A stretch of DNA of 64,000 nucleotides from Bacteriovorax sp. (GTDB lineage: Bacteria; Bdellovibrionota; Bacteriovoracia; Bacteriovoracales; Bacteriovoracaceae). The stretch's first letter is position 1. Every line of letters begins with the position of its first letter. The notes under the pieces are model-generated. The model was not told where the DNA came from, did no database searches, and was given only the letters and a program-made list of their open reading frames with translations. The stretch lies in contig JACMPM010000005.1 of NCBI GenBank assembly GCA_014377485.1, forward strand, positions 1 through 64,000. Reading direction: 5' to 3'. The position numbers and the translations under genes are program-made. Shown one piece after another: positions 38,037 through 39,522 of the stretch.

Positions 38037-38654
38037 CTATTTTCTAAGATCAGTCGACGAAATATTTTTATAAGGATGATCGGCCAAGTAATGTACTTCT
38101 AAATTTGGATTCAATTTCAAAACTTCTCGTTCTTGTTTCAAATAATCATCTTTTCCATATTTTCTGGGAACCACGTACAATTTTGTAAGGGCCTTCAAGA
38201 TCGGTTCTGGATTTTTCCAAGTAAGTAGACTCATATAAGAGTCATCCCCTATTAGGAAATTTTTTTCTTTTATTTTTACGTACGGGAGCCATGAAGCAGT
38301 TGGATTAGGAAGATTTTGTCCTAAGAATCCTGGATAAAGAGAATAGGGCGTATCTTTTAGTTCAAGGGCCAAGGCTAAAAATTCTGCGTAAACATTAGAG
38401 GAAGAATAAATTTCTGTTTTAAATGGATTGCAGTCTGGGACAATTAGAATATTTTTTTCTGGGCATAAATCCAAACAAGCGCGGTGTCCTTGGTGGAATG
38501 GATTAAAGCTTCCACCAAAAAAAGTCACTGAGTTCGTAATTGGATGTTTTAAAAAAAGATGTGCTAACTCAGACTGATTATGAGTTTGATCGCTATTTGG
38601 CATAAATTCAAAATAATTTCCCAGCTCTATACATTTTTTAAACTGATCATTCAT
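38037..38654 (-). CDS. nadD: NadD-like nicotinate-nucleotide adenylyltransferase, short at C-end
   Basis: Start placed at ATG 38654 (MNDQFKKCIEL), overlapping the histone-fold gene by 8 bases; a GTG at 38687 would overlap by 41. The nucleotidyltransferase fold is shown by FFGGSFNPFHQGHRACL (HxGH), IVPDCNPFKTE, and FLIGDDSYMSLLTWKNPE. The ISSTDLRK motif binds phosphate, but the chain ends right there, where typical NadD runs another 20 or so residues. An N-terminal extension of about 40 residues is extra. It may make deamido-NAD or another nucleotide. Co-transcribed with the zinc-finger/histone-fold gene. Confidence 0.75.
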   Translation of the reverse strand: MNDQFKKCIELGNYFEFMPNSDQTHNQSELAHLFLKHPITNSVTFFGGSFNPFHQGHRACLDLCPEKNILIVPDCNPFKTEIYSSSNVYAEFLALALELKDTPYSLYPGFLGQNLPNPTASWLPYVKIKEKNFLIGDDSYMSLLTWKNPEPILKALTKLYVVPRKYGKDDYLKQEREVLKLNPNLEVHYLADHPYKNISSTDLRK

Positions 38655-39117
38655 AATCTCTGTCCATGACTGTTTTTCTTCCTTCACTGCGGGCCTTTTC
38701 TACCGCCCGATCTGTGAGGCGTCTCACATCGCGTGAAAGCGCTTCCATCACATTGGCAGCGGTGTTCATATCGTATTTATCTTTAATATACTGCTTGAGC
38801 TTAGAGGCGACGATCAGAATTTCTGCGGAATCGTCTGATTGGTTCATTGCAGTAGGTTTAGGCTGGACTAAAATTCGTCTTGGTGCTTGCCCTGAATCAT
38901 TATTTTCGATTATTATTTCCGGTTTGCGAGGGGATCGATTTTCTTCGGCCCACGAGCTTTTATGGTTCATAACAGGATTATGAAGATTCCAGCAGTCTAC
39001 TGAGCAAAAAACTAGTTTTCGACAGGTACTCACATTGCACATTTGGTAGATAGTACTATAACTGATCTCTTTTTTGCAACTTCCGCATTTGCGCCAATAG
39101 GTACTTATCTCATCCAT
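38647..39117 (-). CDS. Zinc finger joined to a bacterial histone-fold domain
   Basis: 156 residues. The N-terminus has Cys11, Cys14, Cys27, Cys32, Cys38, Cys42, His46 and His52, spaced like an HIT or MYND zinc finger (FCSVDCWNLH). A charged linker (about 55-97) follows. Residues 98-156 are a histone fold: AEILIVASKLKQYIKDK, NTAANVMEALSRDVRRL, TDRAVEKARSEGRKTV and MDRDYE, in helix-loop-helix order with the RKTV signature that archaeal histones and Bdellovibrio Bd0055 share. It probably binds DNA and another partner through the finger. Overlaps nadD. RBS AAGGAGTAGG is 8 bases before ATG 39117. Confidence 0.8.
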   Translation of the reverse strand: MDEISTYWRKCGSCKKEISYSTIYQMCNVSTCRKLVFCSVDCWNLHNPVMNHKSSWAEENRSPRKPEIIIENNDSGQAPRRILVQPKPTAMNQSDDSAEILIVASKLKQYIKDKYDMNTAANVMEALSRDVRRLTDRAVEKARSEGRKTVMDRDYE

Positions 39118-39180: not shown

Positions 39181-39522
39181 ATGAATTTTGAAACAGAATA
39201 TAAAAACCTAAATTTTCACATCTCAGTAGAAGCAATAGCAATCACCGACGTTTCGTTGCTTCTTGGTGACAAATTTAATCGGCTTCCCAATCAGACGATG
39301 GTGGAACTAAAAAAAGGGACAATTGCTCCTTATAATTTAGTAATTAAATCAAAGAATGGTGATGACGAGAGAACTCATTACTGGAGTAATGTTTTACTTA
39401 CCAGTGACAGCAATGAACTTTTAGAAGAATTAGGTTTTTACCTGGATGATGAAGAAATTCTGGATTCTATTATCTCTAACTGGGAATTAGTTGGTGATGA
39501 CTCAGGACCCGGTTGGAAATAA
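39181..39522 (+). CDS. Small acidic protein, unknown
   Basis: 113 residues, no signal peptide or membrane segment and strongly acidic near the C-end (YLDDEEILDSIISNW, GDDSGPG). Strands such as FHISVEAIAITDVSLLLGD and APYNLVIKSKNGDDE suggest a small mixed fold. No family recognised. It starts divergently from the zinc-finger/histone gene 63 bases away and ends just before a bidirectional terminator. Confidence 0.6.
   Translation: MNFETEYKNLNFHISVEAIAITDVSLLLGDKFNRLPNQTMVELKKGTIAPYNLVIKSKNGDDERTHYWSNVLLTSDSNELLEELGFYLDDEEILDSIISNWELVGDDSGPGWK

Follow-up and report, generated by a model that had tools for sequence, protein, structure and literature searches.

Genomic organization of the finger-histone locus

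In the window (the whole 64,000-nucleotide stretch of Bacteriovorax sp. DNA that was analyzed), a gene encoding a histone fold preceded by a putative zinc finger lies between an NMNAT-like gene on the same strand and a divergently oriented gene, and the following features were delimited, with the evidence for each given in brackets:

38037..38654, minus strand: NMNAT/NadD-like nucleotidyltransferase gene (PF01467 and TIGR00482 matches)
38647..39117, minus strand: finger-histone gene of the ZZ-histone family, 156 aa (ORF and family searches)
38929..39117, minus strand: residues 1–63, finger and conserved W-A-E-E-x-R-[SA]-P tail (ligand invariance, pLDDT)
38824..38928, minus strand: residues 64–98, variable linker with conserved P-R-R-I at 79–82 (identity, lowest pLDDT)
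38650..38823, minus strand: residues 99–156, alpha3-type (bacterial-dimer-like) histone fold with K106, K108, K112 and RKTxMDRD (phmmer, Foldseek, conserved columns)
39181..39522, plus strand: divergent 113-aa gene, a conserved neighbor (homologues found at this position in relatives)

The 156-residue ORF that the initial annotation had placed at 38647–39117 was found there on the minus strand, with an ATG start and an AAGGAG motif about 9 bases upstream. Its product shares 61–85% identity with 14 Bacteriovoracia relatives, which, in combination with low dN/dS values, indicates that the ORF is not due to chance. In the comparison with the near relative L001, dN/dS was approximately 0.05 in the finger, 0.13 in the linker and below 0.01 in the histone half, and the identity of these three parts to the nearest relatives was 86%, 51–57% and 98–100%, respectively. 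Judged from these values, the protein consists of two domains under constraint, joined by a loose linker. The AlphaFold2 model, a monomer without zinc obtained with 86 relatives in the alignment (15 close relatives gave a pLDDT of 49.5), was confident in the finger and histone domains and weak in the linker (pLDDT 53 at residues 71–80), and its pTM of 0.44 fits two domains whose mutual orientation is not fixed.

The histone half is of the bacterial-dimer type

The earlier proposal that residues 98–156 form a histone fold near Bdellovibrio Bd0055 was borne out by sequence and structure searches alike. Using phmmer against PDB chains, we recovered the B. bacteriovorus HBb/Bd0055 entries 8cmp (E 8.6e-12) and 8fvx (E 1.2e-11), and the family profile matched HBb/Bd0055 at E 1.7e-18. 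The AlphaFold2 monomer, a prediction that the initial annotation had suggested as a check, also has the histone fold, which Foldseek aligned with 8fvx (TMt 0.85) and 9f0e (TMt 0.89) over 57–59 columns, and the Pfam search on the finger-histone returned PF00808 below threshold (15.2 bits vs the cut-off of 21.4). HBb/Bd0055 (PDB 8fvx, 8cmp, 9f0e) is about 47% identical to the window protein over 58 residues and resembles it in the histone fold, the alpha1 lysines and the RKT motif, but has neither finger nor linker. The residues K106, K108, K112, R147, K148, T149, D152 and D154 were invariant in the window protein and its 14 relatives. The FtF histones (HLp of Leptospira, PDB 9qt0, and HTkC, 9f2c) share the alpha3 histone fold with 32–38% identity and have no finger, and the residues that make their tetramer, R48 and N52, are absent from the window protein, where the HLp alignment (9qt0) places K141 and E145 at the equivalent positions. 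Based on the HBb matches in sequence and fold, the alpha1 lysines, the RKT...D residues and the replacement of R48/N52, the histone half is of the bacterial-dimer (HBb) type. Its net charge is only approximately +2 (13 K/R, 11 D/E), which counts against the overall reading favored below. By analogy with HBb, which is the basis for both the pairing and the bending described here, dimeric DNA binding is likely: two copies would pair through their histone folds, and the dimer so formed would use the RKT motif and the lysines of alpha1 to bind DNA without sequence preference and, like HBb, would bend it.

A conserved eight-ligand finger

The eight putative ligands (Cys11, Cys14, Cys27, Cys32, Cys38, Cys42, His46 and His52) are positioned as first annotated and were invariant in all 82 finger-bearing relatives, across which W8, K15, I18, Y24 and P63 are nearly invariant and K16 is mostly kept. 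This invariance points to zinc binding, and the finger would hold two zinc ions in a cross-brace, with C11/C14/C38/C42 as one site and C27/C32/H46/H52 as the other. The AlphaFold2 finger reached a pLDDT of 95–97 over residues 11–60, with strands at 7–10, 17–19 and 23–27 and a helix at 40–50. Among 90 sampled fingers, 45 have the ligand spacing 2-12-4-5-3-3-5, 43 have 2-12-4-9-3-3-5 and the remaining two differ from both, so that the loop between ligands 4 and 5 comprises five residues and not nine in half of them (45/90), the window protein included.

The HIT/MYND label originally given to this finger was reasonable insofar as zf-MYND was touched by 11 of the 31 family members searched (best E 0.0024), joint first with VATC among the families listed (25 of 26). 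As a class assignment it is not settled, since no Pfam finger model reached its curated cut-off in the 31 members (zf-MYND in the window protein: E 0.41, 11.2 vs 22.7 bits) and the published survey classes the finger as ZZ-type by structure, likening it to the ZZ domains of HERC2 and p300 (PMC11390915). The zf-HIT model was touched by 4 of the 31 members (best E 0.9) and FLZ also by fewer than MYND or VATC; the Pfam ZZ model was absent among the matches listed for the 31 members (25 of 26 families, E up to 10). Eukaryotic MYND/HIT and ZZ fingers likewise have eight ligands, six Cys and then His, and MYND also has the CxxxC of the second half in common with our finger (FCSVDC in the window protein, YCNVEC in SMYD2), but the window finger is below every Pfam finger cut-off and its hhalign comparisons with CBP ZZ and SMYD2 MYND were insignificant, the templates being single sequences that cannot decide the type. 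When the PDB was searched with the finger profile, MYM-type and VPS71 (HIT) chains came up without significant E-values, and the cytochrome c3 CxxC matches were judged spurious; Rhodanese_C, considered as a finger relative, matched residues 9–43 at a sub-threshold E of 0.007 and was set aside. The best 50 Foldseek matches of the whole-chain model were histone-fold chains only. Sequence does not settle whether the finger belongs to the ZZ, MYND or HIT class.

Some treble-clef fingers bind nucleic acid, and the finger might itself contact DNA or RNA, in which case the protein would bind nucleic acid through both of its halves and have no protein partner. The near-invariant W8 and K15 and the mostly kept K16 beside the first CxxC are consistent with this. 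We consider it improbable, given that the net charge of the finger is only about +2 and that MYND, a protein-interaction finger, is among the nearest Pfam models below threshold.

An added member of the ZZ histones

The caution in the initial annotation that histones with N-terminal fingers might already figure in prokaryotic surveys was well placed. Compared with the published prokaryotic histone classes, the window protein falls, with near certainty, among the ZZ histones, a class described by Schwab et al. 2024 that has D0LYE7 of Haliangium as an example and is also represented in Bdellovibrio (PMC11390915). The architecture is thus not new, and the window protein only adds a member to a described family. 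The ZZ histones have the same N-terminal C4 and C2H2 sites in the same order and a C-terminal bacterial-dimer-like histone, and full-length relatives run unbroken from the window protein to Bdellovibrio-type members. The published ZZ profile places the ligands at C10, C13, C26, C31, C41, C43, H49 and H55 (PMC11390915). Counted from C10, the long-loop spacing observed here gives 10, 13, 26, 31, 41, 45, 49 and 55, such that the long-loop sampled fingers agree at seven of the eight published positions, the loop of the window clade being shorter by four residues. The legend of Fig. 4 in the survey prints the sixth ligand as C53 in D0LYE7 (profile C43), where the sampled fingers have the equivalent of C45/C55; the printed C43 is either a misprint or unlike every finger sampled.

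The window protein and the second histone of Bdellovibrio are orthologues. In B. bacteriovorus, Bd3044 was described as a longer, less conserved histone found in 37% of Bdellovibrionota genomes (Hocher et al., PMC10627809), and it is probably the Bdellovibrio ZZ histone of Schwab et al., since that species has only two singlet histones. The Bdellovibrio ZZ histone has low expression, and the survey authors consider binding of the finger to the tails of other histones unlikely (PMC11390915). Knowledge of the ZZ histones so far consists of computational description and these Bdellovibrio expression data only. What sets the present case apart from the published ones is the position of the protein as the sole histone detected in its genome and its operon with an NMNAT-like gene.

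Distribution and sole-histone setting

A search with a clade profile showed that 58 of the 129 class genomes have full-length homologues, as do many other Bdellovibrionota families. Phages and plasmids gave no relative, nor did viral contigs (scanned with close-relative patterns only), and a phage or plasmid origin was rejected. Two loci (L016:5998-6390 and L017:5998-6390) encode two alpha3 histone folds in one chain, and paired matches suggest that this tandem doublet is common in genus g36.

In the window genome (98.9% complete), four queries returned this locus as the only credible histone match, and a separate HBb orthologue was not found. Throughout the genus, exactly one match was present in 13 of 14 sampled genomes, the window genome among them, and the fourteenth (84% complete) had none. 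This sole-histone setting is possibly new, and it would allow the role of the protein to be examined without an HBb background. It also raises the possibility that the protein took over the global packaging role of HBb as a bulk chromatin component, its finger crosslinking neighboring dimers, with which the almost unchanged histone half (dN 0–0.007 between species) would agree. We nevertheless regard this as fairly unlikely, given the three HU/IHF-type proteins of the window genome, the scarcity of the Bdellovibrio orthologue (PMC11390915) and the dispensability of the gene within the class, where 20 of 129 genomes had no match at all.

Coupling to an NMNAT-like gene and other neighbors

The stop of the histone gene overlaps the ATG of the NMNAT-like gene by 8 bases (ATGAATGA). 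The product of the latter matches PF01467 at E 3.9e-9 and TIGR00482 at E 3.3e-14, the second match being under its curated cut-off. Eight genus members, the window genome among them, show the same 8-base overlap, and the remaining five that were sampled have gaps of 8–19 bases between the two genes. Outside the genus, the pair adjoins directly or overlaps by 1 or 8 bases in several genera, some of which have an NMNAT-like enzyme with an additional Nudix domain. This pairing, kept in relatives, is possibly new: a literature search aimed at such a coupling did not find it, which is weak evidence of absence. It yields the concrete hypothesis that the finger-histone is a specific regulator of NAD metabolism, either controlling the NMNAT-like enzyme or acting together with it; it could, for instance, be a DNA-bound sensor or an autoregulator. 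The persistence of the arrangement across genera, even with finger-less orthologues and with the Nudix-NMNAT form, speaks for such a role. We hold it to be quite improbable all the same, as the neighbors differ in many class members, in Bdellovibrio-type loci and elsewhere in the phylum, so that the link is not general; moreover, translational coupling may merely reflect a shared operon, and the NMNAT activity itself is predicted from a NadD profile match below its cut-off.

The divergent 113-aa gene, for whose product Pfam holds no family, has homologues upstream at the same place in relatives, the finger-less loci included. Directly after the finger-histone, four relatives have a gene for a SWIB-domain protein whose tail is an HC2/H1-like lysine-alanine repeat (L006:6534-6977, L009:578-1027, L014:6527-6976 and L015:6535-6960); the window genome has three SWIB matches, located elsewhere. 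We count this chromatin-type neighbor in favor of the adaptor role proposed below.

Separability of the two halves and a putative adaptor role

At seven sampled loci (L072–L078), the encoded histone lacks a finger but has the P-R-R-I linker together with an acidic N-terminus. The divergent upstream gene is kept at each of these loci, and the NMNAT-like gene lies directly downstream in five and one to two kilobases off in two. In the histone tree, which has 56 columns only, six of them nest with a support of 96/82 within a clade of finger-bearing proteins from their own class, which, along with the kept neighbors, indicates loss of the finger in place. In L079–L081, another finger-less set, the histone gene abuts the Nudix-NMNAT gene. 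Conversely, ten sampled genomes of another family in the phylum have stand-alone finger proteins of 111–123 aa (L106–L115), in which a basic ILRR-like C-terminus replaces the histone fold. A separate plain histone was read in six of these genomes (L130, L131, L133, L136, L138 and L139), and the other four have a second match that is a candidate histone. Taken together, the finger-only lineage and the finger-less histones argue that the two halves are separable and that each can be kept alone. The in-place losses, as well as the finger-only protein beside a separate histone, are possibly new, and the clade offers a natural comparison among finger-bearing loci, finger-less versions at the same locus and finger-only proteins beside plain histones.

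On balance, we lean toward the finger-histone being an HBb-like DNA-binding dimer that carries a partner-docking finger on a tether and works as an adaptor or regulator present in low amounts. For the finger taken by itself, we put a partner-docking function at even odds, based on the finger type and the separability of the domains; it would dock a protein at the end of the tether and bring this partner to the DNA, and the recruitment of a partner to chromatin, which had been suggested from the outset, is plausible. The protein would probably be an adaptor or regulator of low abundance and not bulk chromatin, considering the weak expression of the Bdellovibrio member and the presence of HU/IHF. 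The abundance argument rests on Bdellovibrio, which also has HBb, and where it is the only histone the protein could be abundant. A farther-reaching picture, which we regard as a long shot, is that the genus has as its only histone a zinc-finger adaptor whose gene shares an operon with that of an NAD-synthesis enzyme, so that a chromatin protein would be tied to NAD supply and to a recruited partner, and that its halves can separate in evolution into a free finger acting in trans with a plain histone.

At L013:2274-3380, the finger and linker run in frame into methyltransferase-like sequence, which we rejected as a true fusion, since the 3.4 kb contig and the genome completeness of 59% make an assembly join likely. 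In six fused genes of one family (L117, L118, L104, L097, L119 and L116), an in-frame ATG lies just before the histone fold, where the plain histones of relatives start, and is preceded by a purine-rich Shine-Dalgarno-like stretch; a second, finger-less product of these genes is therefore possible.
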